Below are positions 10,245-34,744 of a DNA stretch of 64,000 nt, one piece after another. The translations under genes and the position numbers were made by a program. The first letter of the stretch is position 1, and each line of letters starts with the position of its first letter. The stretch is taken from assembly GCF_018595675.2 (NCBI RefSeq), contig NZ_CP092333.1, positions 4,178,001-4,242,000 on the forward strand, written 5' to 3'. The stretch is from Flavihumibacter fluvii. GTDB lineage: Bacteria > Bacteroidota > Bacteroidia > Chitinophagales > Chitinophagaceae. Under the pieces are notes generated by a model that searched no databases, was not told the DNA's origin, and saw only the letters and a list, made by a program, of their open reading frames with translations.

Positions 10245-10247
10245 GCC

Positions 10248-12495: not shown

Positions 12496-13080
12496 ATGCA
12501 GGAAGATATATTAATAAAAATCAGTTATAAGATCAAGGAGTGCCGGAAGGACAAGAAGATCACTGTGCAGGAGTTGGCAAACCAGTCAAACGTGAGCAAG
12601 GGCCTGATTTCCCAGATAGAAAATAACCGGACAGTTCCTTCCTTGCCCGTGCTGATGAGTATTATCCACGCCCTCAATTTGGACCTGAAAGACTTTTTCA
12701 AAGACATTTCGCAGGATGGCCAGGAGCAAAAGGTTTTTGTGATCAAAGCCAAAGCCTACCAGCCTTTCCAGAAAGAAAGTACACGTGGGTTTGCCTATAA
12801 ACGTATCCTGACGCACACCATGAATAGTGGCCCGGTGGATATTATCCTGCTTACCCTGAAAAAAGGCGCAACCAGGAATAAGGTCGTCCACACCGATGCC
12901 TATGAATACAAATATGTCATCAAGGGAAAAGTGTCCTACCAGATTGATGGCCAGGATTATATATTAGAGGAAGGCGATTCCTTATTTTTTGACGGAAGGC
13001 TGGGTCATAAACCAGCCAATATCGGAAAGTCCGACGCCCAGCTGCTGGTGCTGTATTATTTTACCACCAAACGGGACTAG
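12496..13080 (+). CDS. XRE-family transcriptional regulator with C-terminal cupin domain
   Basis: 194 residues. Residues ~8-65 form an XRE helix-turn-helix ([20 protein letters not shown]); residues ~110-190 form a small cupin barrel ([27 protein letters not shown], then GHKPAN), a likely ligand sensor. Regulators of this type usually control adjacent metabolic genes. It sits between the molybdenum hydroxylase genes and the phosphonate genes, all on the same strand; the 270-base gap ahead of phnA is where I would expect it to act. Possible ligands are AEP or another phosphonate, which is inference. A weak promoter element (TTACTTTG, 12472-12479) precedes it. Confidence 0.88.
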
Positions 13081-13270
13081 CACCATCCATAGAAACACAC
13101 AAAATGATTAGTCTGGCTTAACTTTTTGCCCCAAATCCCCAATAGCCACCTATAAGTCGCTAAAACTCCAGGAAATAAAAGTTTAATAATACTAAACAAA
13201 TAATACTCCGATATCCGTACTTTTATACTGGTTTACGGAGTCGGATTCTTATTTATTTCATAACACCTGT

Positions 13271-13304
13271 TTTGTCAACCGGTCATTACTAGTTGTGACA
13301 TTTG
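13271..13304 (+). promoter_or_regulatory. Candidate promoter/operator ahead of phnA
   Basis: A TTTG (13271-13274) followed 22 bases later by GACATTTG (13297-13304) approximates the Bacteroidota -33/-7 promoter (TTTG, TAnnTTTG). The same bases contain an inverted repeat TGTCA (13273-13277) / TGACA (13296-13300), a possible operator for the XRE-cupin regulator. The rest of 13081-13350 is AT-rich with no gene visible. Confidence 0.35.
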
Positions 13305-13350
13305 ACAGTATATCCGGTTTTTCAATAGCAAAACAGCATTAAAAAACACC

Positions 13351-14595
13351 ATGAATATTTCAACCCAATCATTTGAAGCGAACGGCAGGAAATTCCAGCC
13401 GGCAGCCAAACCTATTGTAGTGATTTGCATTGACGGATCAGCTGACGAGTACCTTGATACAACGCTATTATTCGACAGGATGCCCAACCTGAAGAAAATG
13501 GCCCGGCAGGGTTATCGCGGAATGGTGCGGGGTGCATTACCCTCCTTTACCAATGTAAATAATTCATCGATCGTAACCGGGGTAACGCCTGCTGTGCATG
13601 GTATCAGCGGTAACTTTTTTTACAATGAAGCCATCGACCAGGAAGTAATGATGAACTCGGCCGAGTACCTGCGTGCTGAAACCATCCTCGCCGCCGCGTC
13701 CAATGCCGGAAGGAAACTGGCCGTGGTAACCGCCAAGGAAAAACTCAGGGATATCCTTTCCTTTAAAATGAAAGGTATTGCGATCTCAGCCGAAAAAGCC
13801 AACCAGGCAAAAATGGATACCCATGGTATCGATAACGTTGAACAGATCGTAGGTTACCCCACACCTGTTATATATAGTGCAGACGCCAGCCTCTTTGTAT
13901 TGCGCGCCGGCGTAGCATTCATCCGGCAAGGCCTGGCTGATTTCCTGTACCTCTCGCTCACTGATTATATGCAGCACACCTTTTCCCCGGAAGCCGAGGA
14001 ATCACTGGCTTTTTATGAAGCGATGGATGTGGAATTCGGTAAACTCTGCGACCTCGGTGCCATCGTTGGTGCCACTGCCGACCATGGCATGAACGCAAAA
14101 GTGAAGGCCGATGGTTCACCCAATGTGTTGTACGTAGAAGACATGCTGGAAGCTCAATTTGGCGATAAAGGTTTCCGCGTGATCTGCCCCATTACCGATC
14201 CATACGTAAAACACCATGGCGCTTTGGGTTCTTATGTAGTGGTGCATGTGAATGATAAGTCCATCATCAACGACATAAAAAATTGGTTGTCCATTCAACC
14301 CGGCATCACTGAAGTGTACGACCGCGCTACTGCCGTGCATGTGCTGGAACAACCTGCAGACCGTATTGGCGACCTGGTGGTTTTATCAGGCCGCGATGTT
14401 GTGGTAGGCCGCAGGCCGCAGTACCACGACCTTTCCGCATTGGATGGCACCCTGCGTTCACATGGCGGACGCTATGAAGAGATGGTGCCCATGATCATTT
14501 CCCATCCTTTAAATGCAGCCTATAAAATGAAGGCGGCAGCAGATCCCCGCAACTTCGACATTTTTGATTTTACCGTGAACGGAACCAATCACTAA
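13351..14595 (+). CDS. phnA: Phosphonoacetate hydrolase
   Basis: 414 residues, cytoplasmic. Cleaves the C-P bond of phosphonoacetate to acetate and phosphate, last step of the PhnW-PhnY-PhnA route. It belongs to the alkaline phosphatase superfamily: first metal Asp28 in CIDGSADEYL, nucleophile Thr67 in PSFTNVNNSS, later metal ligands in LTDYMQHTF, ATADHGMNAK and SHGGRYEEMVPM. Length and the TNVNN motif match characterised phosphonoacetate hydrolases rather than nucleotide pyrophosphatases. The next gene, phosphonoacetaldehyde dehydrogenase, begins 23 bases downstream and makes its substrate, which strengthens the call. Confidence 0.93.
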   Translation: MNISTQSFEANGRKFQPAAKPIVVICIDGSADEYLDTTLLFDRMPNLKKMARQGYRGMVRGALPSFTNVNNSSIVTGVTPAVHGISGNFFYNEAIDQEVMMNSAEYLRAETILAAASNAGRKLAVVTAKEKLRDILSFKMKGIAISAEKANQAKMDTHGIDNVEQIVGYPTPVIYSADASLFVLRAGVAFIRQGLADFLYLSLTDYMQHTFSPEAEESLAFYEAMDVEFGKLCDLGAIVGATADHGMNAKVKADGSPNVLYVEDMLEAQFGDKGFRVICPITDPYVKHHGALGSYVVVHVNDKSIINDIKNWLSIQPGITEVYDRATAVHVLEQPADRIGDLVVLSGRDVVVGRRPQYHDLSALDGTLRSHGGRYEEMVPMIISHPLNAAYKMKAAADPRNFDIFDFTVNGTNH

Positions 14596-14618
14596 TCCAA
14601 TTCAAAGTTTGCCAACAT

Positions 14619-16094
14619 ATGAATACAATTCACGAACCAACAGTTAGCATTAACCGATATGCTTTGGGCGGAAATGACATCGCTGCAATTCATTGTTATG
14701 TTGCAGGAAAGAAAATAGAATCAGCCAATAAGCTCGAGGTGCGGAGTCCCTACGACGGCCGCCTGGTGGGCACGGTGCAACTGGCGAATAAAGTGCACGC
14801 CGAAGAAGCCATTCAGGCAGCACTTAAAGGCGGAAAGAAATTAACCCGCTACGACAGGTACAGCATCCTGGAAAAAGCCCGGCATTTACTGGTGGAGCGC
14901 AAGGAAGAATTTGCTAAAACCATCAGTTCGGAATCTGGGCTCGCCATCAGGGAAGCGATCTATGAGACCGGGCGCGCCCATGATGTACTCCTGTTCGCAG
15001 GGATCGAATCCTTAAAAGACGACGGGCAAATTTTCTCCTGCGATATCTCCCCATCAGGCAAAGCCCGGAAGATATTCACCCTTCGCGAACCCTTGTCCCT
15101 GGCGGTTTGTATCACCCCGTTCAACCATCCGCTCAACCAGGTCTTACATAAGATTGCACCGGCCATCGCCGTTGGAACACCAGTCATTTTAAAGCCATCT
15201 GAAAAGACTCCGCTTACTGCAATCAAGATCGTGGAATTATTATATGAAGCCGGATTGCCCCATTACATGCTGAGTGTATTGTTAGGTCCGACCAATGAAA
15301 TTGCCGAACCATTAGTGAAAGACTCACGGGTGGATATTGTTTCTTTCACCGGCAGTGTTGCGGTAGGTAAACACATCGCTTCAGCAGCTGGCTACAAGAA
15401 AGTAATCCTTGAACTGGGCGGCAACGACCCGGTGATCGTGATGGAAGACGCCGACCTGGACCTGGCCGTATACCTCGCCGCAGAAGGCTCTTTCCGTAAT
15501 AGTGGCCAGCGTTGTACCGCTGTTAAGCGCATCCTGGTACATGAAAAGATCAAAGATGCTTTCACGGAAAAATTCCTGGCCAAAGCGAAAGAATATAGCT
15601 GTGGCAATCCCGCAGATCCTGAAATAAAAGTGGGTACCGTAATCGATGAAGGCGCAGCCATCTACCTGGAAAACGTTGTGAAAAGGGCAGTTGAGCAAGG
15701 CGCGAAAGTAATACTTGGCGGAAACAGGAAGGGCGCCCTCATGGAGCCAACGGTTATCGTCGACGTTCCGCGTAACGCTGATATGGTGGTGCATGAATCT
15801 TTTGGTCCGCTTGCACCGATCATGACGTTCAAAGACATTGAAGATGCCATTGCCTTAAGTAACAGCACCGCCTACGGATTATCGAGCGGAATCGTTACCA
15901 ATAATATGGAATATGCGCTGCGCTTTGTTAAGGAATTAAAAGTGGGTACCGTTAATATCAACGAAGTCCCGGGATACAGGATTGAATCCTCCCCATTCGG
16001 TGGCATTAAAGATTCCGGACTTGGTATCAAAGAGGGCGTGATCGAAGCCATGAAATGCTTCACTTTTGTGAAGACCTTCTCCATGCCCTGGTAA
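14619..16094 (+). CDS. phnY: Phosphonoacetaldehyde dehydrogenase
   Basis: 491 residues, an aldehyde dehydrogenase oxidising phosphonoacetaldehyde to phosphonoacetate with NAD+. Motifs seen: cofactor-binding CITPFNHPLNQVLHKIAPA and FTGSVAVGKHIA, catalytic Glu in LELGGNDP, catalytic Cys in SGQRCTAVKR. The family alone could be another aldehyde dehydrogenase; its place between phosphonoacetate hydrolase and AEP transaminase identifies the substrate. This is the dehydrogenase PhnY of Sinorhizobium, not the unrelated 2-oxoglutarate oxygenase also called PhnY that pairs with PhnZ. Confidence 0.93.
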   Translation: MNTIHEPTVSINRYALGGNDIAAIHCYVAGKKIESANKLEVRSPYDGRLVGTVQLANKVHAEEAIQAALKGGKKLTRYDRYSILEKARHLLVERKEEFAKTISSESGLAIREAIYETGRAHDVLLFAGIESLKDDGQIFSCDISPSGKARKIFTLREPLSLAVCITPFNHPLNQVLHKIAPAIAVGTPVILKPSEKTPLTAIKIVELLYEAGLPHYMLSVLLGPTNEIAEPLVKDSRVDIVSFTGSVAVGKHIASAAGYKKVILELGGNDPVIVMEDADLDLAVYLAAEGSFRNSGQRCTAVKRILVHEKIKDAFTEKFLAKAKEYSCGNPADPEIKVGTVIDEGAAIYLENVVKRAVEQGAKVILGGNRKGALMEPTVIVDVPRNADMVVHESFGPLAPIMTFKDIEDAIALSNSTAYGLSSGIVTNNMEYALRFVKELKVGTVNINEVPGYRIESSPFGGIKDSGLGIKEGVIEAMKCFTFVKTFSMPW

Positions 16095-16127
16095 TTCAAC
16101 TGATTGCTAACAACTTTTAACTACTGT

Positions 16128-17255
16128 ATGAAAAAATTACTGTTTACACCCGGACCGCTTACCACTTCCAGAACCGTAAAAGAAGCCATGCTGGAAGATG
16201 TTGGCTCCAGGGATTATGTCTTTGTAAATGCTGTTAAAGAGATTCGCAGCGAATTGCTGACCCTCGGCCATGTGTCGCAGGCAATGGGCTATGAAACCGT
16301 GCTGGTGCAGGGTTCTGGCACATTTGGAATTGAGAGCGTGATCAGCAGCGCAGTGGGGAAACAGGATGTTTTACTTATCCTGGCCAACGGCGCCTATGGC
16401 GAGCGCATCGTCAAAATGGCAGTCATCCACCAGCTGCAACACCAGGTCTTGCGCTTTCCTGAAAGCGAGATCGTTACGCCTGAAGCCACCATCAATTACC
16501 TGGAAGCGCATCCTGAAATTACCCATGTGGCCTGCATCCATAGTGAGACCACCACAGGCGTGTTCAATCCCATCGGCGCAATAGGTGCTGTTTGCGAACA
16601 GTACAATAAAGTATTTATCGTTGATGCCATGAGTAGTTTCGGCGGCGTTGAAATGGATATCGATGCCCTGAAAATCGATTACCTCGTTTCCTCTTCCAAT
16701 AAATGTATTGAAGGTGTTCCCGGTTTTGCTTTCGTCATTTGCAAAAAGGCGCAACTGGAAAAATGCAAGGGCCAGGGCAGGAGCCTTAGTCTCGATTTGT
16801 ATGACCAGTGGGCCGGACTCGAAGCCAATGGCCAGTTCAGGTTCACGCCGCCCACGCTGAGCCTCCTTGCTTTCAGGCAGGCGATGAAGGAACTGCAGGC
16901 GGAAGGTGGTGTTCCCGCCCGTGAAAAGCGCTACAAGACCAATAAAATCACCCTCGATACGGGTATGGCGGAACTCGGTTTCCAGCAATACCTGCAGCCC
17001 GGGATCCAGGGACATATCATCACCTCTTTCTTATACCCGGACAGTCCCAATTTCAATTTTGAACGCTTTTACCAGAAACTCAATGATCGCGGTTTAATCA
17101 TTTACCCGGGGAAGCTGGGCAAGACCGATGCTTTCCGGATCGGGAATATCGGGCAGATCTTTCCGGATGATGTAAAACGATTGGTCCAGGCGATCAAAGA
17201 AGTGCTGGAAGAAGAAGGTGTTGTAATGCCGAAACAGGAAAAGCAGACCGTGTAA
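16128..17255 (+). CDS. phnW: 2-aminoethylphosphonate--pyruvate transaminase
   Basis: 375 residues from the ATG at 16128; an in-frame TTG at 16104 would add eight residues but the ATG gives the family's usual start (MKKLLFTPGPLTTSRTVKEA). PLP-dependent class V aminotransferase converting AEP and pyruvate to phosphonoacetaldehyde and alanine, first step of the pathway. The Schiff-base Lys lies in SSSNKCIEGVPGFAF; HSETTTGVFNP and DAMSSFGGVEMD are PLP-pocket motifs. Its stop codon is inside a terminator-like hairpin, so phnA-phnY-phnW look like one transcription unit separated from susC. Confidence 0.95.
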   Translation: MKKLLFTPGPLTTSRTVKEAMLEDVGSRDYVFVNAVKEIRSELLTLGHVSQAMGYETVLVQGSGTFGIESVISSAVGKQDVLLILANGAYGERIVKMAVIHQLQHQVLRFPESEIVTPEATINYLEAHPEITHVACIHSETTTGVFNPIGAIGAVCEQYNKVFIVDAMSSFGGVEMDIDALKIDYLVSSSNKCIEGVPGFAFVICKKAQLEKCKGQGRSLSLDLYDQWAGLEANGQFRFTPPTLSLLAFRQAMKELQAEGGVPAREKRYKTNKITLDTGMAELGFQQYLQPGIQGHIITSFLYPDSPNFNFERFYQKLNDRGLIIYPGKLGKTDAFRIGNIGQIFPDDVKRLVQAIKEVLEEEGVVMPKQEKQTV

Positions 17256-17275
17256 AAGGTACACGTATTTTTTTT
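17249..17275 (+). terminator. Probable intrinsic terminator after phnW
   Basis: CGTGTA (17249-17254) pairs with TACACG (17260-17265) around a five-base loop, followed by a T-run (17268-17275). The hairpin includes the phnW stop codon. A six-pair stem is short, so termination may be partial. Confidence 0.5.
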
Positions 17276-17460
17276 CTTATGGAAAGCAGCGATAACATCA
17301 ATCCGCCGGTCTATCACATTGTTCCCTATTATCCACAAATTTTGTGGTGTAACATGGAAATCTGTGTGCTTAAAAAAATAGTCTCCCTAAAAAAAGTTAA
17401 GTTTCCCTAAACTTCTTTATTTGTTAAAATTGCCTTAACTTCCTCTTCACATTGGTAAAA

Positions 17461-17468
17461 TACATTTG
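17461..17468 (+). promoter_or_regulatory. Bacteroidota -7 promoter element ahead of susC
   Basis: TACATTTG matches TAnnTTTG exactly and lies 30 bases before the susC ATG, giving a leader of plausible length. No clear TTTG was found at the expected -33 spacing. Confidence 0.4.
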
Positions 17469-17498
17469 AACTTTCAAGATCATTCAAACTAACTAATT

Positions 17499-20400
17499 AT
17501 GAGAAAACTACTTCGCTCGCATGCATGCCGCGTGTGGCTTATGGTTCTGCTTATGGCACCACTCTTTGTGTATTCGCAGCAGCCCATCACCGGACAAATC
17601 GTTTCCCAAAAAGATCAGGCGCCCATTCCCGGTGTGACCGTGATGCTAAAAGGTGCAAACAAAGGAACTTCCACCAACGTAGAAGGAAGATTCACGATCA
17701 CCGCCAAGCCAGGCGATATCCTGGTGATCAGCGGTGTGGGAATTGATCAACAGGAAGTCACCATCGGTCCGGACGGTAAGGTGTTGATTTCAGTGCTTCA
17801 ATCTGAAAGTGCACTAAACGAAGTTGTTGTAACAGCGTTGGGTGTTAAAAAGGAAAAGAAGAAACTGGGTTACGCTGTCCAGGAAGTGAAAGGCGATGAC
17901 CTGGTGAAAGCCCGCGAGCCCAATGCCATCAATGGTTTGGTGGGAAAGGTAGCTGGACTTACCGTAGGTAGCTCACCTGAGTTATTGGGTAATCCCAATG
18001 TGTTACTTCGTGGTAGCGGTATTAATTTATATGTAGTGGATGGTGTTCCCATCAACTCAGATACCTGGAATATTTCTCCCGATGATGTGGAAACCTATAC
18101 AGTGCTGAAAGGTGCTACCGCATCTGCCCTGTATGGTTCTCGCGGCCTGAATGGCGCGATCATGATCACTACAAAAAGAGGCTCGAAGGACAAACGCGGG
18201 TTCTCTATTGAATTCAACAACAGTACCATGTTTGATAAAGGCTTCAATGCTATTCCAAAGGTGCAGGATGAGTATGGCCCTGGCGATCACGGTAAATATG
18301 CTTTTGGTGATGGTAAGGGCGGTGGCGTTAACGATGGTGACTATGATGTTTGGGGTCCGAAATTTGAAGGCCAGCTGATTCCACAGTATGATTCACCAGT
18401 AGATCCGGTTACCGGCGAACGTTCCGGAACACCCTGGGTTGCACGCGGAAAAGATAACCTGGAGCGGTATATTGAAACCGGTTTACTGATGACTAATAAT
18501 ATCTCAGTTTCTTCAAAATCTGATAAATCTGACCTGCGTTTCTCTGTATCTAACACCTACCAGGATGGGATAGTTCCTAATACCAAGTTGACTATTACGA
18601 ATTTCAATATTTCTGCAGGATACAATTTCACAGAAAAACTCCGCCTGGAATCTTATATCAACTACAACCGCCAGAGTACACCAAATATTCCTGATGTACA
18701 GTATGGCCCTAATAGTATGATCTACAATATCACGCTTTGGGCGGGTGCAGACTGGAGCATGGATGATATGCGTAATTACTGGCAGCCTGGTAAAGAAGGT
18801 GTTCAGTCTATTTATGCTGAATACCAGCGTTACCATAACCCATATTTCATGGCCTATGAGTGGTTGCGCAGCCACAATAAGAATGATGTAAACGGAAACC
18901 TTAAACTGTCTTACAAACTGAATAAGAATTTTGATTTCCTCGTTCGTACACAGGTGACCACATATGATTTGTTGCGGACTGAAAAAATGCCTTACAGTGC
19001 ACACCCTTACGGACGTGAAGAAGGCAAGGGAGATTACCGCGAAGACCGCAGGTCTATGTTCGAAACCAATACAGATGCCCTGGTTACCTACCAGAATAAT
19101 CATGTCTACAAGGATATCAGCGTACGTGCTTCAGTGGGTGGTAATATTCGTAATTTCAAATATAATTCCAGCTTTACCACTACAGACTACCTCAACGTAC
19201 CTGGTTTGTATGCATTCTCTAATTCACGCAATCCAATCAGGGCATCGAGCTATGCTGCGAACATGCTGGTATTGAGCGGATACGGTTACCTGGATATCGG
19301 GTTCAGCAAATATGCCAACCTTTCCTTAACCGGACGTTACGATAAATTGTCAACACTCCCGGACGGTAATAACCTGTATTTCTATCCTTCAGCTTCCTTG
19401 AGTACAGTAGTTACTGATTACCTGCAGCTTCCTGAATTCATTTCCTTCCTTAAGTTCCGCGGTTCTTATGCAAATGTAAAAGGCGGATTGACAATGCCAA
19501 CTATCGGTGCCACACCACAGGCAAGCTATCCGCTTAGTTATGGTGCTGAATACTATTCTTCTTATGATGGTCCAACTTATGAGAACTCGGCTTCTTATAC
19601 AACCCCGTTGGTGTACGATAATAAAGCAGGTGCATACTTTACAAACACCATTAATAACCCGGCCATCCAGCCTTTCAGCTCTGAAGTGATTGAAGCTGGT
19701 ATGGATATCCGCTTTATTAAAAACAGGATCGGGTTTGACCTTACGTATTTCGTGAATGATGATGGTCCGCGTATTTACCAGTTGCCAATCTCTACTGCAA
19801 CAGGTTTCAGCGCGGCACTCGTAAATGGTATCACCACCCGTAAAACCGGTTGGGAAGCGACCTTAAGCGGTACGCCTGTCCGTAGCAAGAGTGGTTTCTC
19901 CTGGGATGTTTTGATCAACTGGAGTACGTTTAAAGAAAATCTTACCAGTATTTATCCAGGTGTAGAAGCACTCAACGTCTTCTTAAAAGTGGGTGACCGC
20001 ATAGATAAAATCTATGGAAGTGCGTTTGTTCGCACGCCTGAAGGACAACTCATCAATGATGCCGGTGGCCGCCCGCTTCGTGCGCCACGTGCACAATTCC
20101 TGGGTACTGCCAATCCTGACTGGGTTTGGGCAATCAACAATACCTTCCGTTACAAAAACTTTAACCTTGGTTTCCAGTTTGATGGCCGTGTTGGCGGAAG
20201 CATGATCAACTATGTACAGCAACAAACCTTCCGCGGTGGTCGTCACGTTGCTACTATTGAAGGTAAAATGGGTGAAGCCCGTTACCAGGATTACCTGGGT
20301 AATAAATCATGGGTTGGAGATGGCGTAGTAGTTAGCAATGGCGTACCTATTGAATATGATGCCGATGGTAAAGTGACCAATTATAAAGAACTGGAATATG

Positions 20401-20708: not shown

Positions 20709-20727
20709 TTGATCACTATCTAATTGA

Positions 20728-22293: not shown

Positions 22294-22314
22294 GACTCGT
22301 TTAATTTAATATTG

Positions 22315-22352
22315 AATCAAGGCGAAACTGATCTGTTGGTTTCGCCTTGATT
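22315..22352 (+). terminator. Strong hairpin between susD and the first phosphoesterase gene
   Basis: A perfect 14-bp stem (AATCAAGGCGAAAC / GTTTCGCCTTGATT) with a ten-base loop, followed only by TTGTCT rather than a long T-run. It may act as a partial terminator or as an mRNA-stabilising 3' end for susCD. Confidence 0.7.
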
Positions 22353-22371
22353 TGTCTAAAACTGTTATGAA

Positions 22372-25083: not shown

Positions 25084-25085
25084 TC

Positions 25086-27521
25086 ATGCGTCAATATCTA
25101 TGGAGCCTGGCAGGTTGCCTGCTGATCAATAATGCAATAGCCCAGGTTTCACCACTTGCTGCAAAACTTGAAGAGGACCGGGTCCGCTTGCCGAACGGCT
25201 GGCATCTTTCGCCGGCAGGCCGGTCACTGCCCCTCGGTGATCTGCCCTTGAACCTGGTGCTAAGCGCATCCGGGAAATATATGGCCGCTACGAATAACGG
25301 CCAAAGTGTTCAAAGTATCCAGTTGATCGACCCGGTGAAGGAAAAATTGCTCGACAAGGTCATCATCCCGAAAAGCTGGTATGGCCTCTGTTTCAGTGCT
25401 GATGAAAAATCACTGTATGCCAGTGGCGGTAATGATAATATCATCTGGCAATATGCCATCCGCAATAACAAACTCGTAAAGAAGGACAGCATCGTGCTGG
25501 GTGCAAAATGGCCCGTGAAAATTTCGCCTGCAGGCCTTGCGATCCATGCGAAAAGGAATGAACTATATGTGGTCACCAAAGAGAACAACCAGTTTTATTG
25601 TATCGACCTGGCCACAAAGAAAATAATGACATCCCTTCCGATTGCCGCAGAAGGCTATGCCTGCCTGGTGTCCCGCGACATGAAATCGGTATTTGTATCA
25701 GTTTGGGGTGGTGCACAGATCTGGCAATACGATGTGCAACAGCAAAAGTTCACGCGTAAGATTGATGTAGGTAACCATCCGAATGAACTCATCCAGACAA
25801 AGAACGGCCGCTATGTATTTACGGCAAATGCCAACGACAACAGTGTTTCCATCATCGATGTACAACAATGGAAAGTTGTTGAAGTGCTTAATGCCGCTTT
25901 ATATCCGGATGCACCAATAGGCTCGGCAAGTAACGGGCTCGCCTTATCCGCTGATGAAAAAACATTGTATGTTGCGAATGCCGATAATAACTGCCTGGCC
26001 GTATTTGATGTGGCCAGTCCAGGTCAGTCCCATTCCATCGGATTTATTCCAACGGGCTGGTATCCAACTAACGTTAAAGTGAAAAGCTCGAAAATATTTG
26101 TCAGCAATGGCAAGGGCTTTTCTTCATTTGCCAATCCGCATGGTCCCAATCCGGTTGCAAAAAAGCAGGCAGTGAATTACCAGAAAGCAGATACGGTTGC
26201 CAGGCAGGAAGTACAATATATTGGCGGGCTCATGAAAGGTACGCTCAGCATTATTGATGTGCCGGATGCATCTGCTTTAAGTACCTATTCGAGAGCCGTA
26301 TACAGGAATACTCCCTATACCAAGGAAGGTGAGTTACTATCGAAAGGTGAAGCAGGCAATCCTATTCCCATGAAAATAGGTGATCCTTCGCCGATCAAAT
26401 ACGTGTTTTATATCGTGAAAGAAAACCGTACTTACGACCAGGTGCTGGGTGATATTAAAGAAGGCAATGGTGATACAAGCCTGGTTTTATTTGGTGAACA
26501 CGTTACACCCAACCAACATAAACTGGTGAAAGAATTTGTTCTCCTGGATAATTTTTATACAGATGGTGAAGTTAGTTCGGACGGCCATAACTGGACTTTT
26601 TCTGCCAATGCAACTGACTACCTGGAGAAAACATGGCCAACCGGATATGGCGGCCGCGGCGGGTCTTATGATGGAGAAGGGAATCGTGCAATTGCTAATC
26701 CCACCAAAGGTTTCATCTGGGATTATTGCAAAAGGGCAGGGGTCAGTTATCGCACCTATGGTGAATTTGCGGATGATTATAAAGCAAATCTCCCGGTACT
26801 TGAAAATCATTTATGTCCATATTATACGAGTTGGGATGAAACCGTTAGGGATACTACCCGTGTAGGGCAATGGCGCCGTGAGTTTGATTCCTTACTAGCG
26901 GCCAATGCTGTTCCGCAGTTCAATTCATTGCGCCTGATCAATGACCATACCGAAGGACAAAAGATCGGCCGGCCAACCCCATTCGCGCATGTAGCCGACA
27001 ATGACCTGGCAGTGGGAATGTTTATTGAATACCTGTCTAAAAGTCCAATCTGGATGGAAAGCGTAGTGTTTATTGTTGAAGATGATGCGCAGAACGGTCC
27101 GGACCACGTTGACGCCCACCGTACCACTGCATACGTTGCCGGAGGTTATGTGAAAAGGAATTTTGTGGACCATACAATGTACTCCACCTCTTCCATGCTA
27201 CGTACCATTGAACTAATCCTGGGCCTGCCGCCGATGAGCCAGTATGATGCGGCTGCTGAACCGATGTGGCGCAGTTTCAGTAAAGTACCTGATGGCAAAG
27301 GGTTTACGGCAGTTCCGGCATTGGTAGACCTCAATGAAAAAAATACCGCAAAAGGAGAGAATGCGATCCGTAGCAGTACACTGGATTTTTCCAAAGAAGA
27401 TAATATTCCAGATATGGTATTCAGTGAAATCATCTGGAAGGCCGTAAAAGGAGAACATAGCGTTATGCCGGCACCAAGAAGGAGTGCCTTTGTACAAGTA
27501 AAAGAAGAAGACGAAAAATGA
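25086..27521 (+). CDS. Secreted YncE-like beta-propeller / phosphoesterase fusion, paralog 2
   Basis: 811 residues with signal peptide (MRQYLWSLAGCLLINNAIAQ). Same architecture as its upstream neighbour: propeller repeats up to ~residue 420 (LSASGKYMAATNNGQ, VFTANANDNSVSIIDVQQ, LALSADEKTLYVANADNNCLAVFD) and a C-terminal phosphoesterase domain (YIVKENRTYDQVLGDI, VSSDGHNWTFSANATDYLEK, LINDHTEG, ADNDLAVGMF, VEDDAQNGPDHVDAHRTTAYVAG). It has SSDGHNW where paralog 1 has SIHGHHW, and HTEG where paralog 1 has HGAG, suggesting different substrates. The end overlaps the start of the TonB receptor by four bases (ATGA), indicating translational coupling. Confidence 0.88.
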   Translation: MRQYLWSLAGCLLINNAIAQVSPLAAKLEEDRVRLPNGWHLSPAGRSLPLGDLPLNLVLSASGKYMAATNNGQSVQSIQLIDPVKEKLLDKVIIPKSWYGLCFSADEKSLYASGGNDNIIWQYAIRNNKLVKKDSIVLGAKWPVKISPAGLAIHAKRNELYVVTKENNQFYCIDLATKKIMTSLPIAAEGYACLVSRDMKSVFVSVWGGAQIWQYDVQQQKFTRKIDVGNHPNELIQTKNGRYVFTANANDNSVSIIDVQQWKVVEVLNAALYPDAPIGSASNGLALSADEKTLYVANADNNCLAVFDVASPGQSHSIGFIPTGWYPTNVKVKSSKIFVSNGKGFSSFANPHGPNPVAKKQAVNYQKADTVARQEVQYIGGLMKGTLSIIDVPDASALSTYSRAVYRNTPYTKEGELLSKGEAGNPIPMKIGDPSPIKYVFYIVKENRTYDQVLGDIKEGNGDTSLVLFGEHVTPNQHKLVKEFVLLDNFYTDGEVSSDGHNWTFSANATDYLEKTWPTGYGGRGGSYDGEGNRAIANPTKGFIWDYCKRAGVSYRTYGEFADDYKANLPVLENHLCPYYTSWDETVRDTTRVGQWRREFDSLLAANAVPQFNSLRLINDHTEGQKIGRPTPFAHVADNDLAVGMFIEYLSKSPIWMESVVFIVEDDAQNGPDHVDAHRTTAYVAGGYVKRNFVDHTMYSTSSMLRTIELILGLPPMSQYDAAAEPMWRSFSKVPDGKGFTAVPALVDLNEKNTAKGENAIRSSTLDFSKEDNIPDMVFSEIIWKAVKGEHSVMPAPRRSAFVQVKEEDEK

Positions 27522-29545
27522 AAAGAGAGGTTACAGTAATGCTTTTGATGATAGCAGCCGGTCCGGCGTTTTCTCAGCAGGACAGTAGTGTTGTGCCAAA
27601 ATCGCTTACAGAAGTGGTGGTTACTTCGCAGCGTAAAGAAACAGCGCTGTTACAAGTGCCCTATCTGGTAGAAAAAACAAATGGCCGCACCATAAATACC
27701 TATCAGCCCAGGACCACCCCTGAAGCACTGGTTGGCCTCAACGGCGTATTTGTACAGAAGACCAACCATGGCGGTGGATCACCGTTTGTACGCGGACTAA
27801 CCGGCAACCAGGTACTGATGCTGGTGGATGGCATACGCCTGAATAATTCAACATTCCGTTACGGACCTAACCAATACCTCAATACGATAGATCCTTTTGG
27901 AGTTGACAGGATAGAAGTGGCCAAGGGAACCGGTTCCGTGCAATACGGGTCAGATGCACTGGGTGGCGTTATCCAGGTATTTTCAAAGGAACCCGAATTC
28001 TCCAAAGAGGCTGCCTGGAAAGGCAATTTGATGGGTAAGTTCATGACTGGTGGCATGGAAAAAACCGGTCATGCAGATATGACCTATTCTGGAGAGAACA
28101 TGGCTGCACAGGTTGGACTAACCTATCGCGATTTTGGTGACCTTATAGGTGGTGATACAACGGGCAAGCAAAGTCCATCCGGCTACAATGAATACGCCTG
28201 GGATGCTAAACTCAAATTTTTACTGGCCCCCCGGGCAAGGCTAACCGTAGCACACCAATTCCTGCAACAAAATGAAGTACCGATTTACCATAAAGTGGTG
28301 CTGGAGAATTACCGGATCAATGAAATCGATCCGCAACAAAGGATGCTGAACTACGCCAGGCTGGATCTCGATGGAAAGCAACCATTAACGAAACAAATCA
28401 GTATTACGGCTTCCTGGCAGCATAGTATCGAAGGCCGGCTAAGCAGTAAGAATAATAGCACAACACTCAGGAAAGAAAAGGATGCCGTCAATACACTTGG
28501 ACTAACAGCAGAAGTATTCAGTGAGATCGCGCGGAACTGGACTGCCAATTCGGGAATAGAATTATACCAGGATGCGGTGTCAAGTGAGCGCAGTGATATC
28601 AATGAATCTACAGGGGCGGAAAAAGAGTTGCGCGGATTATACCCTGATGGTGCCCGTTATGGAAATTATTCAGTCTATAGTTTACATCATATAAAATGGC
28701 ACAGGGTTTCAGTAGAGCTGGGTGCGCGGTATAATTTCTTTAATATCCGGTTAACTGATACCAGCCTGGGTAAAGTGGCCATCCAACCTTCAGCATTGGT
28801 TGGAAATGCCGCATTGATGTACCACCTGAATGACCGCCATAAAATCTTTGCCTCACTGAGCAATGGTTTCCGTGCACCCAATATTGATGATATGGGCACG
28901 CTCGGCATTGTTGATTTCCGGTATGAAGTTCCTGCAAGTGATTTGCGGCCAGAAAAATCCATCAATACAGAACTTGGCTATAAGTTTATGGCAGGGAGAC
29001 TTGAAGGATCGGCCAGTGTGTTTTACCTGCAAATAAAAGATATGATCACCAGGGTTAAAGTGGGTAATGATTCCATCAGTGGCTATCCGGTGTATAAAAA
29101 GGAAAATACGGAAAAGGCGAATATCAAAGGAGTAGAAGCTAGTTTGAAATACCTGGTGATACGCCATTTTGTGGTGTTGGCCAATATCGCTTACCAGAAT
29201 GGTGAAAATGAAACAAAATCAGAACCCATGCGCCGCATTCCACCGATTAACGGGAGATTCATGGCGACCTATGTTAAACAAAACTGGCATGCAGATGCTG
29301 AGTGGTTATGGGCCGGAAAGCAGGATCGCCTGGCCCAGGGCGATAAAGACGATAATCGTATTCCAAAGGGTGGTACACCTCAATGGAATGTTGTAAATTT
29401 ATATGGTGGTGTCAGCTGGCCGTTTGCAGACCTGAACCTAGGATGCCAAAATGTATTCAATGAAGACTACCGGACACATGGCTCTGGGATTAATGGCGTT
29501 GGCCGTAGTTTATGGCTGTCATTAAAAATTAAAATCAACCAGTAA
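27518..29545 (+). CDS. TonB-dependent outer-membrane receptor
   Basis: 675 residues, signal peptide (MKREVTVMLLMIAAGPAFSQ), a TonB-box-like LTEVVVTSQR, plug domain ~35-160 (PFVRGLTGNQVLMLVDGIRLNN, then RIEVAKGTGSVQYGSDALGGVI) and a 22-strand barrel ending in SLWLSLKIKINQ. It is a classical FepA/HemR-like receptor without the regulatory-like extension of SusC. It overlaps the phosphoesterase gene and lies 1 base before the PhnZ-like gene, so the four genes from 22372 to 30140 form an operon. It may import the released small phosphonate, or iron for the diiron oxygenase next door; both are inference. Confidence 0.9.
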   Translation: MKREVTVMLLMIAAGPAFSQQDSSVVPKSLTEVVVTSQRKETALLQVPYLVEKTNGRTINTYQPRTTPEALVGLNGVFVQKTNHGGGSPFVRGLTGNQVLMLVDGIRLNNSTFRYGPNQYLNTIDPFGVDRIEVAKGTGSVQYGSDALGGVIQVFSKEPEFSKEAAWKGNLMGKFMTGGMEKTGHADMTYSGENMAAQVGLTYRDFGDLIGGDTTGKQSPSGYNEYAWDAKLKFLLAPRARLTVAHQFLQQNEVPIYHKVVLENYRINEIDPQQRMLNYARLDLDGKQPLTKQISITASWQHSIEGRLSSKNNSTTLRKEKDAVNTLGLTAEVFSEIARNWTANSGIELYQDAVSSERSDINESTGAEKELRGLYPDGARYGNYSVYSLHHIKWHRVSVELGARYNFFNIRLTDTSLGKVAIQPSALVGNAALMYHLNDRHKIFASLSNGFRAPNIDDMGTLGIVDFRYEVPASDLRPEKSINTELGYKFMAGRLEGSASVFYLQIKDMITRVKVGNDSISGYPVYKKENTEKANIKGVEASLKYLVIRHFVVLANIAYQNGENETKSEPMRRIPPINGRFMATYVKQNWHADAEWLWAGKQDRLAQGDKDDNRIPKGGTPQWNVVNLYGGVSWPFADLNLGCQNVFNEDYRTHGSGINGVGRSLWLSLKIKINQ

Positions 29546-29546
29546 G

Positions 29547-30140
29547 ATGCTTTCCTCCCAATCAGTAACCGACGAAATATTTTCCCTTTTTGAACAATTT
29601 GGCGCGGAAGAATATGCCGGCGAAAAAGTCTCACAATTGGAACATATGTACCAGGCTGCACAGTTGGCCACCAGCGAAGGCTATGATGATGAAGTTATAT
29701 TGGCGGCATTTCTGCATGACGTCGGCCATTTGCTACCCGTTGAAAATAAGCAGGATAGAATGGTGGGAAGCGATGGCCTGCAGTATGGAATGGTAGAGCA
29801 TGAAAAACTTGGTGCCGAATGGCTGCGGAGCATGGGCCTCGGTGAAAGGATGTGCAAACTGATTGCCTCCCATGTTAACGCCAAAAGGTACCTGACACTT
29901 AAAGACCCTGAATATTACGACCAATTATCAACAGCCAGCAAACAGACCCTTGAATACCAGGGTGGTCGCATGTCGCCGGCTGAAGCACAGGCATTTGAGT
30001 CAGATCCTTTATTTGAGTTATATATCAGGATGCGCCGTTGGGATGAAGCCGCTAAATTGGAAGACCAGCCTGTCGGGAACCTGGGGGAATTAAAGTCCAT
30101 GCTGCGTAAATACCTGGAAAAAAGAGGGGTGTCTTATTAG
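29547..30140 (+). CDS. PhnZ-like HD-domain mixed-valence diiron oxygenase of phosphonate catabolism
   Basis: 197 residues. PhnZ cleaves 2-amino-1-hydroxyethylphosphonate with O2 to glycine and phosphate; the related TmpB acts on the trimethylated analogue. All residues I recall as iron ligands or active-site residues of PhnZ are present in order: Tyr23 and Glu26 in YAGE, Gln30, His33 in QLEHMYQAA, His57-Asp58 in FLHDVGH, His85 in VEHEKLGAEW, His109 and Lys113 in SHVNAKRYL, Asp166. The sequence fits the HDIG family associated with phosphonate operons. The usual 2-oxoglutarate oxygenase partner that makes the hydroxylated substrate is not in the window. It converges on the HAD gene with 5 bases between stops. 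Confidence 0.88.
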   Translation: MLSSQSVTDEIFSLFEQFGAEEYAGEKVSQLEHMYQAAQLATSEGYDDEVILAAFLHDVGHLLPVENKQDRMVGSDGLQYGMVEHEKLGAEWLRSMGLGERMCKLIASHVNAKRYLTLKDPEYYDQLSTASKQTLEYQGGRMSPAEAQAFESDPLFELYIRMRRWDEAAKLEDQPVGNLGELKSMLRKYLEKRGVSY

Positions 30141-30145
30141 GCAGT

Positions 30146-30847
30146 TCAGGCCCTGGATTGCAGAAATGACCTGAAATCATGCAAGGAGCCAAATGCTATG
30201 TCGGGATTAAAAGAAGATAATTGTCCCAGGCTATGGCTTCCATTAGTAACACAACAGGATAATAATACACCGGCCTTTTTACCTGATTGGATATCTGAAG
30301 GGGTGTCACCAATATTGATGACTGTTTTACGGTCATAGATACCCAAAATATCCATGGCTTTGCGGATCATGTGGGGTTCCGGTCGGCCCTTTTCCACTTC
30401 ATCGCTCGTAATGGAAACCTGAACAAGGCCGTCTCGTATCCAGCCCAGTTTACCTAAAAGTATATCTGCCACTTTTCTGTACAAGCCGGTAGTTAATGCG
30501 ATGGCAATTCCTTTTTCCATAAGGAATTTAAATAATTCTACGCTACCTTCTATCGGCAGAACCTCATGTTGTTTATAATGATCTTCCAGTATTTTCCTGA
30601 ATACACTATAGGAATGTTCTACCTGCTTAAGCCATTCATTATTTCTTTCGCCAGTTTGTCTTTCCCAGTAGGTTTCAAAAACCTGGCGTATTGCCCAGCC
30701 CTGCACGGCCAGGATTTCTTCGTCGGTCATCTTTAACCCAGTTTGCTTTGCTGATAGTGAAAAACAGTGTTCAATTTTAGGATGGTCCCTTATCGTGGTG
30801 CCAATCATATCGCAGACTACCAGTCTGATGTCCTGAATATTTTTCAT
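30146..30847 (-). CDS. Phosphonatase-like HAD hydrolase
   Basis: 233 residues, HAD superfamily subfamily IA. Motif I is DMIGTT with nucleophile Asp13; position +2 is Ile instead of the usual acid, a feature also seen in phosphonoacetaldehyde hydrolase (PhnX, DxAGT), where C-P rather than P-O cleavage occurs. Motif II TTG (ALTTGLYRKVA), motif III Lys in EVEKGRPEPHMI and motif IV INIGDTPSDIQSG are present. It fits the family of phosphonatase-like hydrolases often found next to the FAD oxidoreductase encoded immediately upstream. I could not identify an equivalent of the PhnX Schiff-base lysine with confidence. Start overlaps the previous stop by one base (TGATG), so translation is coupled. Confidence 0.85.
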   Translation of the reverse strand: MKNIQDIRLVVCDMIGTTIRDHPKIEHCFSLSAKQTGLKMTDEEILAVQGWAIRQVFETYWERQTGERNNEWLKQVEHSYSVFRKILEDHYKQHEVLPIEGSVELFKFLMEKGIAIALTTGLYRKVADILLGKLGWIRDGLVQVSITSDEVEKGRPEPHMIRKAMDILGIYDRKTVINIGDTPSDIQSGKKAGVLLSCCVTNGSHSLGQLSSFNPDIAFGSLHDFRSFLQSRA

Positions 30848-32004
30848 CAGTCGAAGATTTTATGGATATTCTCTTCTGCGAGTGCGGCGCTGGCTGTCAT
30901 TCCTTTACCGCCAATTGCAGTAATGATCCAGGTATTCGTATCTGCCGTTTCCATAAACAGGTCGTGCCCTTTGCGTTGTGCGTAATAACCATTCCATTGT
31001 TTAGCAATATTCCAATGTGGTAAACGAAACATCCGCTGGGCCTCTTCCAGGACAATGTCATTGATTACCTGCTTTATGTCAAACCCAAGCCGGTCAGCAT
31101 TTTTGGCATCTTCATATTCATGGGAATCACCAATAATAATACTTCCATCAGCAGCCTGTTTAAACAACACATGGATGCCCCATTTTTTACATAGCTCGTT
31201 GATATTACCAGCCACTGCTGTATTAAAGGAGGGGCATTCCGCGAAGGATTCATATCTACGGATGCTTAATCCGCTGAATATGGATCCGGGTAAAACATAA
31301 TCGGTCATTGGCGAAGTACTCATCATTTGCAGTTTCGATACTTCAATATCACTATTGAAAAATAATTGCGGGTAAAGTGATTTGAAATCTCGGCCATTGC
31401 AAATGATTACCTGGTTGCCGGTGAATGTTTGCCCGTCACTGGTTTCAACATAACAACGATCCTTTTTGTATTCAACAGATTTCACCAGGGAAAGCGGACG
31501 GTATGTAACGGCAAGCTGTTCTTTCAGGTAAGCAATGAGGTGATGGATCATGCGCGAGGGCTCAACGGTTATTTCATCCGGGAAGAATAGTCCACCCACA
31601 CAATAAGAAGCCCTCAGTCCGGGATATTTTTCCAGGCAGTCTTCCTTGCCATTTATAACGGAGAGGTATCCGCGCTTTTTATTAATAACGGCCAGTTCTT
31701 CCAGCAGGGTCATTTCAGTAGCATCGGAAGCTATATACACTGAACCATTTTTTCTGACCGTGATATCAAATTTAGCCTGGATATCCTGGTATATTTCCGT
31801 GCTTCGCCATCCATATTCCTGCCATTTCCCCTGGCTCATGCCCGATGGAATGACCATGCCAAAGTTGCGGACAGTGGCTTCAGCAGGCTGGCTGTCCTTT
31901 TCCAGTAACAATACTTTTAATCCCTTACGGGCGGCATGGTAGGCGTGAAAACTGCCTAAGACGCCGGCACCGGTAATAATACAATCATAATGCATGTTAT
32001 TCAT
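30847..32004 (-). CDS. FAD-dependent amine oxidoreductase of phosphonate operons (TIGR03364-like)
   Basis: 385 residues. N-terminal FAD-binding Rossmann motif IITGAGVLGSFHAYHAARKGLKVLLLEKD, DAO-like fold, ending WIITAIGGKGMTASAALAEENI. It resembles the glycine-oxidase-like enzymes recurrent in phosphonate operons, for which oxidation of AEP or N-methyl-AEP to phosphonoacetaldehyde has been reported. That would feed the PhnY-PhnA branch and a phosphonatase branch. Middle gene of a three-gene minus-strand operon, 9 bases after the transporter-like gene and overlapping the HAD gene. The exact amine substrate cannot be read from sequence. Confidence 0.87.
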   Translation of the reverse strand: MNNMHYDCIITGAGVLGSFHAYHAARKGLKVLLLEKDSQPAEATVRNFGMVIPSGMSQGKWQEYGWRSTEIYQDIQAKFDITVRKNGSVYIASDATEMTLLEELAVINKKRGYLSVINGKEDCLEKYPGLRASYCVGGLFFPDEITVEPSRMIHHLIAYLKEQLAVTYRPLSLVKSVEYKKDRCYVETSDGQTFTGNQVIICNGRDFKSLYPQLFFNSDIEVSKLQMMSTSPMTDYVLPGSIFSGLSIRRYESFAECPSFNTAVAGNINELCKKWGIHVLFKQAADGSIIIGDSHEYEDAKNADRLGFDIKQVINDIVLEEAQRMFRLPHWNIAKQWNGYYAQRKGHDLFMETADTNTWIITAIGGKGMTASAALAEENIHKIFD

Positions 32005-32013
32005 AAGCGTGTA

Positions 32014-33297
32014 CTAAATGGTTTGCAATTGTTGGAATTTCCTTCTAAAATAGATCCAGCTGAACACTACAGTGGCTAAGCCGATTACTGCAAAAATCGC
32101 ACTTACATAAATGAAATAGGGTAACCAGTCTGTTTGGGTATTAAATAATTCTTTGTTGAGAATCAATATGCAACTACCCAGGTAGCCAACAGAATCCATC
32201 AGGTAAAAAAAGAACCCGATATTACCATTTACCTTATAGGCTGAAATAAACCGGTCCAGGAACAGGCACTGGAGGGTGTTATAGCTAAGGTATAACCCTA
32301 TTGTGTAGGTAACCAGCAAGGCAATGGCATCGCCAAATTTAATGTACAGGCAAATGGCACAAAGTCCAACTGCTATAAAACCTGCACCAATTACGAAGTG
32401 GTGCCTTTTAATGCTTTTAAAGTGGCTGGACAAGCCGGATATGGTCAGCAATAAGGCAAATACCACCAGTGCAGCGATGGTTTCCATCCTGGTAAAAATC
32501 CCCGGATTCGCATCAGGCCTGATTTTCCGGATGATTTCAACGGCATAATTATCTTTTATATCCCGCAAAATAGTCAGTAGCAGGTTAATGAGAATAATGG
32601 CCAGTAATCCCGGCAGGAACCTTTGTAATAATGCCTTTCTGCCCTGGGCATTCATCGGTTCCCGCTTTCCCCTTTGGGCGGTTTCCAGTGGTGTGGGCGG
32701 TGGAATGCGGGTTAAGGCATATACGGAAATGAACAGAAGGGGTAGGAAAAGGCAGCCGGCCACAAAAGGCATATAGATCTCTGCAATTCCCCAGGATTCA
32801 ATGCAGACACGGCCTATACTCTTTGCTACCCCGGAACTGAAAATGAAATTGATACTCAGGATCAGTGCAATAAAATCAGTAAACCTCCGGCCTTCAATAA
32901 AGCTGAAAACCAGGCCCCATATCAGCCCCAGGCACATGCCGTTGATATACAGGAAGGCCAGGTTTAATGGCCTTGGCACCAGGGCCAGCATCAGCAGGCT
33001 CAGGTGAGCCCCGCCAATCAATAACAGGATATACCGGGCCCTTTTTGCTGGTTCAAGCTCTGCGATGAATTTAATGCCGATAAACTTTGCCGTCATATAC
33101 CCTAATACCTGGGCAATGACAAGGGCGGATTTGAAGGAAATACCAAGGGTATTGATACCGTCAAACGTAGTGGCACTAATGGTTTTACGAAAACCGTACA
33201 TGCAGAAATAGGTCGAAAAAGAGGCAAAGGCGGCCAAACTGATGTTCGCAACCTGGGCTTTGGTGATTTTTCCGGTGAAAGTAGACTGGCTAAGCAT
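32014..33297 (-). CDS. DUF5690-type membrane protein, probable MFS/organophosphate-like transporter
   Basis: 427 residues with about 12 hydrophobic helices and a short cytoplasmic loop after helix 6 (TAQRGKREPMNAQGRK). FSTYFCMYGFRKTISA at the first helix resembles the start of the organophosphate:phosphate antiporters such as GlpT and UhpT. As the first gene of the operon with the FAD oxidoreductase and the HAD enzyme, it most likely brings a phosphonate across the inner membrane. No ABC-type phosphonate importer (PhnCDE) is present in the window, which supports this role. Function is inferred from fold and context. Confidence 0.75.
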   Translation of the reverse strand: MLSQSTFTGKITKAQVANISLAAFASFSTYFCMYGFRKTISATTFDGINTLGISFKSALVIAQVLGYMTAKFIGIKFIAELEPAKRARYILLLIGGAHLSLLMLALVPRPLNLAFLYINGMCLGLIWGLVFSFIEGRRFTDFIALILSINFIFSSGVAKSIGRVCIESWGIAEIYMPFVAGCLFLPLLFISVYALTRIPPPTPLETAQRGKREPMNAQGRKALLQRFLPGLLAIILINLLLTILRDIKDNYAVEIIRKIRPDANPGIFTRMETIAALVVFALLLTISGLSSHFKSIKRHHFVIGAGFIAVGLCAICLYIKFGDAIALLVTYTIGLYLSYNTLQCLFLDRFISAYKVNGNIGFFFYLMDSVGYLGSCILILNKELFNTQTDWLPYFIYVSAIFAVIGLATVVFSWIYFRRKFQQLQTI

Positions 33298-34708: not shown

Positions 34709-34744
34709 AACTTACTACTCTTACTATATAAATAACATTAACCT

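Follow-up and report, generated by a model that had tools for sequence, protein, structure and literature searches.

The phosphate utilisation system (PUS) of Flavobacterium, described by Lidbury and co-workers, is among the closest described counterparts of the locus considered here, a block of genes at 12496-33297 in a 64,000-nucleotide stretch of the Flavihumibacter fluvii chromosome (the window; positions 4,178,001-4,242,000 of a 5.0 Mb single-contig genome). The block joins a SusC-SusD pair (SusCD) to two exported phosphoesterases (PE1 and PE2), a DUF5690 membrane protein and enzymes of aminophosphonate catabolism. PusCD clusters also hold 'phosphonate-degrading enzymes', to which one sentence is given in a main text where 'phn' does not occur (PMC8115612). 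SusCD-based phosphorus loci with phosphonate enzymes have therefore been reported already and this kind of locus is known, so that a preliminary description of the window, made from its sequence alone, went too far in presenting the SusCD-phosphonate linkage as a departure from known loci (PMC8115612, main text). Both systems combine a SusCD pair with a co-located exported phosphoesterase (export judged by eye) and turn the logic of a polysaccharide utilisation locus (PUL) to phosphorus. They differ in that PusD1 belongs to PF07980/PF14322, whereas the window's SusD belongs to PF12771, and in that one SusD type is here tied to catabolism of the 2-aminoethylphosphonate (AEP) type across the phylum. 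Induction by phosphate depletion would be expected of the window locus if it were a PUS.

In their main texts, PMC8812569 repeats the PusCD term without phosphonate loci, PMC9671461 reports expression of a phosphonate transporter and of susC in Polaribacter with no link drawn between them, and PMC10752948, a match for phosphonate and SusD, concerns antiSMASH clusters. No literature match combines AEP with SusD, and the phylum-wide tie between SusD and aminophosphonates, the swapping of cassettes, the role of DUF5690 and the esterase contrast described below do not appear in the main texts examined (supplements apart).

The enzymes of the window are those of the PhnWYA and PbfD/PhnX pathways, whose main-text accounts name neither SusCD nor an exported esterase (PMC10590968, PMC8154272). 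The combination of phnWAY with PhnZ is known from 24 of 75 clusters (PMC8154272, Table 1), and PbfD/PhnX-pathway enzymes are found predominantly in proteobacteria and in some PVC members (PMC10590968, main text). PULs have in common with the block a regulator, SusC, SusD, an exported hydrolase, an inner-membrane carrier and cytoplasmic catabolism. They differ from it in their products, here predicted to be phosphate and two-carbon acids, and no Pfam family of carbohydrate-active enzymes is found in 12496-33297 at E 0.001, which sets the block apart from PULs proper.

AepXVW, AepP and AepSTU are inner-membrane carriers. AEP uptake is common to them and to the window locus; they differ in being carriers of free AEP, as described aminophosphonate importers are carriers of small free molecules (PMC8316502). 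The main text of that account describes AepP as lying together with PhnWAY in several phyla, among them Bacteroidetes, and the term 'outer membrane' is absent from it (PMC8316502).

The SusCD pair and the enzymes of the window very probably form one aminophosphonate system. On balance, the block is best read as a surface-to-cytoplasm aminophosphonate utilisation locus, PUL-like but aimed at phosphorus, that uses an ester-bound substrate. The single locus from surface to cytoplasm, with SusCD linked to phosphonate catabolism, had been proposed in the preliminary description and is borne out by the comparisons that follow.

Recurrence of the SusCD-phosphonate linkage

The window's SusD-type surface lipoprotein (20728..22293, plus strand; PF12771, 215 bits against a cut-off of 27; lipobox LSGC seen in the sequence) follows a SusC-type TonB-dependent outer-membrane transporter (17499..20708, plus strand; TIGR04056, 461 bits against a cut-off of 368). 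Named genomes were searched with a profile of nine SusD proteins, selected for their proximity to PhnA or PhnZ-like genes; of 559 confirmed relatives, the 80 best were retained. Genes of the relatives were taken as open reading frames of at least 90 codons with blastp matches of 1e-10 or better (1e-8 in some scans) to window or reference proteins, a rule by which divergent members are therefore missed and esterase matches of 22-31% identity are counted. A PhnZ-like gene, a HAD gene, either FAD enzyme, PhnW, PhnA or DUF5690 counted as a neighbour, and short contigs were scored as having no gene. On these terms a catabolic gene lies within 10 kb in 63 of the best 80 relatives, and at least two such genes in 53. 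The 63 are unchanged when DUF5690 is left out and become 61 when only PhnZ-like genes, TIGR03364, PhnW and PhnA are counted; among loci with near-full flanks, 38 of 47 lie beside catabolic genes. Control SusD loci under the same rule give 1 of 27 (1 of 20 from genomes of the family, none of 7 from the genome of the window; Fisher 2e-12), and the single control match (L173) lies in another genome of the genus, where it is the phosphonate locus at the syntenic place.

The named SusD loci span six NCBI classes of Bacteroidota, with 11 of the 80 not placeable. The two nearest named matches (L064 and L065) are Chitinophagaceae records, a family in which we take Paraflavitalea to be placed, and a Flavobacterium locus (L080) carries the window's SusD type. 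Over the 80 loci, a PhnX-like or PhnX HAD is present in 44, a PhnZ-like gene in 43, DUF5690 in 41, a TIGR03364 FAD enzyme in 40, PhnW in 11 and PhnA in 2. Family scans took 36 of 45 HAD, 35 of 37 FAD and 38 of 43 HD proteins from these loci, together with those of the window and three further HD proteins; at E 1e-10 or better, 37/37 HAD proteins match phosphonatase models, 36/36 FAD proteins match TIGR03364 and 42/42 HD proteins match TIGR03276. On a SusD tree of 123 proteins the neighbour label changes 12 times; shuffled labels give 37.6 changes, and none of 500 shuffles came down to 12. The tree is a quick one with long control branches, and the relatedness of rows adds to the clustering of labels.

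Seen from PhnA, the search covered 294 genomes of the same family, and PhnA is above cut-off in 20 of them, the window's genome included. A SusD of the window type lies no more than 3 kb before PhnA-PhnY in 8 of the 19 other PhnA loci (L031, L032, L035, L040, L043, L045, L046 and L048), directly or one to two genes away. These 19 genomes hold 372 SusD-like_2 matches, and the expected number of PhnA loci with any SusD-like_2 gene within 3 kb is 0.42 of 19; eight are observed (P = 2e-9), and the gene counts rule out a chance linkage of SusD and PhnA. L031 and L099 are apparently one record, with identical SusD and contigs of equal length, and were counted once in each count. Across the class, only 8 of 395 genomes have a PhnA that passes the cut-off, and six of these belong to one genus of another family.

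The preliminary description had proposed a gene-neighbourhood search and held that the idea would fall if relatives lacked the arrangement. SusCD lies beside phn genes in relatives on the SusD side, on the PhnA side and in a syntenic genome of the same genus (G272), and conservation is what was found. A separate observation concerns a protein of 824 amino acids directly upstream of PhnA (L057:2770-5244), in which a TonB plug and no barrel is recognised, and which matches SusC (below cut-off) and MG2 weakly.

Exchange of catabolic cassettes and the lost lysine

Several C-P-cleaving cassettes accompany this one SusD type. L090 has PhnW and a PhnX that passes its cut-off, L127 has PhnW-PhnY-PhnA, L101 and L119 have PbfA above cut-off, and a PhnZ-like gene, a HAD and a PbfD-type (TIGR03364) enzyme occur together in 28 of the 80 SusD loci. 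The cassette enzymes act on AEP, N-methyl-AEP and 1-hydroxy-AEP (PMC8154272, PMC10590968, main texts). All three substrates are, judged by protein family, predicted to be covered by the enzymes of the window. Alcohol dehydrogenase-like genes also occur in SusCD phosphonate loci: one at L069:8348-9403 (TIGR03366, a family putatively associated with phosphonate catabolism, 275 bits against a cut-off of 328) and one at L066:12936-14033, judged by eye.

The window combines the hydrolytic AEP pathway with a second set of enzymes. PhnA, a phosphonoacetate hydrolase (13351..14595, plus strand; TIGR02335, 497 bits, cut-off 408; nearest solved relative 1ei6), PhnY, a phosphonoacetaldehyde dehydrogenase (14619..16094, plus strand; TIGR03250, 664 bits, cut-off 636), and PhnW, an AEP aminotransferase (16104..17255, plus strand; TIGR02326, 477 bits, cut-off 401), are adjacent and all above their curated cut-offs. 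The pathway is complete, as first described, and it is not the conserved core of the locus. G272, a genome of the same genus, holds at the same chromosomal place XRE-SusC-SusD-PE1-PE2-TBDR-PhnHD (SusC 80% and SusD 75% identical; TBDR, TonB-dependent receptor) and HAD-FAD-DUF5690, which is the gene order of the window minus PhnA-Y-W. Because G272 keeps this order without them, PhnA-Y-W is an addition; with PhnA in 2 of 80 SusD loci, its candidacy as the core is rejected.

Three further genomes of the genus fill the same place differently. G179 shares this syntenic set; its SusCD belongs to another type (34% and 31%), and an XRE gene was not recognised there. G008 and G231 have XRE, the other SusCD type, PhnHD, FAD and DUF5690 and lack the esterases and the HAD; both carry XRE-PhnA-PhnY-DUF5690-PhnW elsewhere in the genome (L039 and L038, respectively). 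PhnA above cut-off is absent genome-wide from G272 and G179. In G108, the fifth genome, NrdB is only distantly similar (24%). Single descent of SusCD is ruled out by the second SusD type, which shares 30-31% identity with that of the window and occurs in the syntenic loci of G008, G231 and G179; in these three same-genus genomes the second SusCD type fills the slot beside the same phosphonate genes (L173, L201 and L202).

The PhnX-like HAD (30146..30847, minus strand; TIGR03351, 152 bits, below the cut-off of 219) is present as the preliminary description stated, with its catalytic lysine lost. Lys53 forms the Schiff base in phosphonatase (PMC11203657, main text). The window's protein has Ile53 at this site, and all 45 relatives compared have Lys (1 of 46 without it); the HADs of G272 and G179 retain the lysine. 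No PhnX that would cover the loss is found elsewhere in the window's genome, where the next match scores 41 bits. Where other SusCD loci carry PhnA, the HAD is found in none of 9; where PhnA is lacking, it is found in 44 of 78 (p = 0.001; p = 0.002 after omitting one truncated PhnA locus). In the window both are present. On the simplest reading of these patterns, which has few independent events behind it, the PhnX-like HAD and PhnY-PhnA are alternative routes for phosphonoacetaldehyde. The swap of the PhnX-like enzyme for PhnY-PhnA within a genus, with the lysine lost where both remain, offers a natural test of the HAD acting on phosphonoacetaldehyde.

Exported esterases and the predicted substrate

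In the proposed mechanism, the exported, phospholipase-C-like PE1 and PE2 would cut the C-O-P ester that links a phosphonate to lipid or glycan, and the released head group would be AEP or its N-methyl or 1-hydroxy form. SusC-SusD, energised by TonB, would carry the phosphonate-bearing product through the outer membrane, with the ester cut placed before or after this passage, and DUF5690 would take the product through the inner membrane. PhnW would convert AEP to phosphonoacetaldehyde, as would the PbfD-type oxidase with N-methyl-AEP (possibly AEP too). PhnY and PhnA would turn phosphonoacetaldehyde into acetate and phosphate, and the PhnZ-like oxygenase would turn (R)-1-hydroxy-AEP into glycine and phosphate. 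An XRE-cupin protein is the likely switch of the locus and would probably sense a ligand. The substrate, the direction and order of the steps and the induction are parts of this explanation that we infer.

AEP occurs in ciliates, and use of ester-bound aminophosphonates of lipids and glycans is likely. Phosphonates are found in lipids and glycans generally (PMC8316502, main text). 1-Hydroxy-AEP is known from polysaccharides of Acanthamoeba castellanii and from lipids of Bdellovibrio stolpii, in the main text with unspecified stereochemistry (PMC8154272), and N-methyl-AEP from lipids of shellfish and Tetrahymena, going by reference titles in PMC10590968.

PE1 (22372..25083, plus strand) and PE2 (25086..27521, plus strand) each consist, by family match, of a beta-propeller and a PF04185 phosphoesterase domain, with a signal peptide judged by eye. 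They share the fold and the conserved KENRTYD and EDD...DH motifs with the phospholipase C and AcpA family of PF04185, and differ in being fused to an N-terminal YncE-like propeller and in a substrate that we infer. The motifs KENRTYD, NDH, ADND and EDD...DH are kept in both proteins and vary little or not at all across 32 aligned sequences. An AlphaFold model of the PE2 catalytic domain (pLDDT 76) best matches RePLC, a non-specific phospholipase C (Z 27.2, 2.8 A, 281 residues), followed by plant NPC (Z 24.2), PLC-N (23.6), glycerophosphoethanolamine phosphodiesterase (22.2), AcpA (22.1) and sulfatases (about 20.8). The modelled fold is closest to phospholipases C, and phospholipase activity is predicted. 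A phospholipase C cut leaves the phosphorus on the head group, so for a phosphonolipid the product would be AEP.

Esterases accompany SusCD. Among the 19 PhnA loci, an esterase of exported type from the alkaline-phosphatase superfamily is part of the locus in 6 of the 8 that have SusCD; of the 11 that lack it, 0 have one within 10 kb (p 0.001). Omitting the cut contigs L031, L034 and L044 gives 6/7 against 0/9 (p 0.0009), and omitting also L032, of which the upstream side is cut and the downstream side is present without an esterase, gives 6/6 against 0/9 (p 0.0002). An alkaline-phosphatase-like gene about 14 kb from PhnA in L042 was scored as outside. Esterases of the kinds searched are present in 50 of the 80 SusD loci and 1 of 27 controls, with PE1 in 26 of the 80, AP360 in 20, PE2 in 14 and AP419 in 8; AP360 and AP419 are small exported esterases. 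Together with the phospholipase C-like fold, this tracking of SusCD favours the macromolecular or lipid-bound substrate of the preliminary description, which is still put forward as a suggestion. The evidence leans, by a little, towards an imported or processed substrate that is ester-bound.

A wider reading may be offered more tentatively. One SusCD type would serve across Bacteroidota as a dedicated outer-membrane importer of ester-bound aminophosphonates. It would be surrounded by interchangeable C-P-cleaving cassettes (PhnWX, PhnWYA, PbfA, PbfD with a PhnX-like HAD, PhnZ-like), by exported esterases that are phospholipase-C-like or otherwise of the alkaline-phosphatase superfamily, and by DUF5690 as an inner-membrane aminophosphonate carrier. 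Soil protists and predatory bacteria would supply the natural food, in the form of their phosphonolipids and lipophosphonoglycans. If this SusCD type is dedicated to aminophosphonates, part of the lipid and glycan phosphonate pool gains a defined consumer, whose marker gene could be tallied in metagenomes, and the locus offers a testable function for DUF5690 and for the propeller-phosphoesterase fusions.

A number of observations speak against so close a bond between SusCD, esterases and ester-bound aminophosphonates. No catabolic gene was found in the examined stretch of 17 of the 80 SusD relatives, ten of them with at least 17 kb examined, and 11 of the 19 PhnA loci of the family have no SusCD of the window type in the examined stretch, two of these being on contigs shorter than 9 kb. 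PhnA at 43-44% identity stands without SusCD in the examined stretch in 6 of 6 loci from one genus of another family (L182-L187). The AP360 and AP419 reference esterases derive from SusCD loci themselves, and SusCD-less genomes were therefore also searched with Pfam PF01663 and PF04185. Only 12 of 20 DUF5690 genes picked across the class lie by aminophosphonate genes, three by HAD alone, and a strict tie of DUF5690 to phosphonates is not supported. SusCD pairs may also carry small molecules. Finally, PE2 homologues 64-66% identical are found outside phosphonate loci in L205, L207 and L209, and another in L206 has no phosphonate genes nearby on a contig of only 3.8 kb.

Six of the ten long relatives without catabolic genes form one Dyadobacter group (L074, L075, L082, L083, L086 and L092), with SusC and SusD 55-59% identical to those of the window and no phosphonate gene in the examined stretch. 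Catabolic genes may lie elsewhere in this group, or its substrate may have changed. In the six genomes of L182-L187 with PhnA above cut-off, PhnA directly adjoins a PhnZ-like gene (6/6).

The PE2 copies of L205, L206, L207 and L209 also bear on the secreted propeller-phosphoesterases of the preliminary description: two are indeed present beside SusCD, and they are not exclusive to phosphonate loci, so the propeller fusion as a phosphonate-specific feature is ruled out. Outside copies and locus copies fall on opposite sides of one branch (support 80). The homologues outside phosphonate loci suit an alternative in which the locus takes up free small aminophosphonates, SusCD being an efficient gate for scarce AEP-type ions and PE1 and PE2 general exported phospholipases or phosphatases that supply phosphate under shortage. 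It is also favoured by the breadth of PF04185, which holds phospholipase C and acid phosphatase alike, and by Foldseek, which ranks AcpA first for the PE2 catalytic-domain model. PhnA loci that have DUF5690 and PhnW and lack SusCD (L037, L038 and L039) point the same way, since free AEP is therefore probably usable without this SusCD. If free AEP is used without it, however, SusCD needs another reason; exported esterases accompany SusCD among PhnA loci, and the genes for PE2, the TBDR and the PhnZ-like oxygenase overlap or abut. Uptake of free aminophosphonates as the function of this SusCD is accordingly judged unlikely.

An ordinary PUS, in which common phosphodiesters are what SusCD and the phosphoesterases scavenge, the phosphonate genes being mere neighbours of the same regulon, has its precedent in the Flavobacterium PusCD loci with phosphomonoesterases and phosphodiesterases that respond to phosphate depletion (PMC8115612, main text). 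It is improbable here, as C-P-bond genes accompany more of the SusD relatives (63/80) than do esterases of the searched kinds (50/80), and what unites the cassettes is the aminophosphonate rather than any single esterase family. An explanation by chance proximity, or by unrelated modules that hitch-hiked together, draws on the abundance of SusD-like_2 genes and can be set aside almost entirely, given the excess at PhnA loci and the gene order kept in G272.

Gene layout, DUF5690 and a second locus

The block contains thirteen genes between a molybdopterin oxidoreductase (9771-12443) and NrdB/NrdA (33737-37096), scored against curated TIGRFAM cut-offs and Pfam models. By these family models every gene named in the preliminary description is present and contiguous, with no unrelated gene among them. 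An XRE-cupin regulator (12496..13080, plus strand; PF01381 and PF07883) heads the block; its relatives head PhnA loci and SusCD loci and are found in 18 of the 80 SusD loci. From susC through susD, PE1, PE2 and the TBDR to phnHD the gaps are 19, 78, 2, -4 and 1 bp, PE2 and the TBDR overlapping by 4 bp, and the three minus-strand genes are separated by -1 and 9 bp. Two plus-strand units (phnA-phnY-phnW and susC-susD-PE1-PE2-TBDR-phnHD) and one minus-strand unit are likely from this spacing.

The TBDR (27518..29545, plus strand; PF00593 and PF07715, TIGR01785 below cut-off) is of the haem/siderophore-receptor type and is present in 12 of the 80 SusD loci. The PhnZ-like HD-domain oxygenase, phnHD (29547..30140, plus strand), scores 210 bits with TIGR03276, just below the cut-off of 214.6, and its nearest solved relatives are PhnZ (4n71, E 3e-36) and TmpB. 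Y23, E26 and the HD-motif residues, which we take to be its metal-ligand and substrate residues, are invariant in 42 sequences. A PhnY* dioxygenase (PF05721) is absent from the locus, and four PF05721 genes lie elsewhere in the genome. The putative PbfD-type FAD aminophosphonate oxidase (30847..32004, minus strand; TIGR03364, 387 bits, cut-off 285) falls in the family to which PbfD1 belongs (PMC10590968, main text), and oxidation of N-methyl-AEP is predicted for it.

DUF5690 (32014..33297, minus strand; PF18943, 432 bits, cut-off 25) is a membrane transporter with an MFS fold, of which the literature search found no mention. Its AlphaFold model (pLDDT 91) matches SLC37A4 (Z 34.5) and a D-galactonate symporter (Z 33.0) and is close to other MFS carriers. 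The short contig L088 lacks DUF5690 and has a carrier of GlpT/PgtP type that scores below cut-off. A PHP-domain hydrolase-like gene of about 285 amino acids lies near 6 of the 20 DUF5690 genes picked across the class (L215, L217, L218, L219, L220 and L224); five of the six are among the 12 beside aminophosphonate genes, and the match is confirmed by Pfam in L218 and judged by sequence in the rest. No phosphonate gene was found at L217, and DUF5690 may therefore also carry other organophosphates.

The window's own genome contributes one of the 12, at a second locus (L227:6541-11527; 3,971,040-3,976,026). It holds PbfA (729 bits, cut-off 525), DUF5690, a divergent XRE-cupin gene and a PF01663 lipoprotein that has a PA14 domain and is probably exported. 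By predicted family, an exported-type esterase, a hydroxy-AEP enzyme and DUF5690 again travel together in this second locus.

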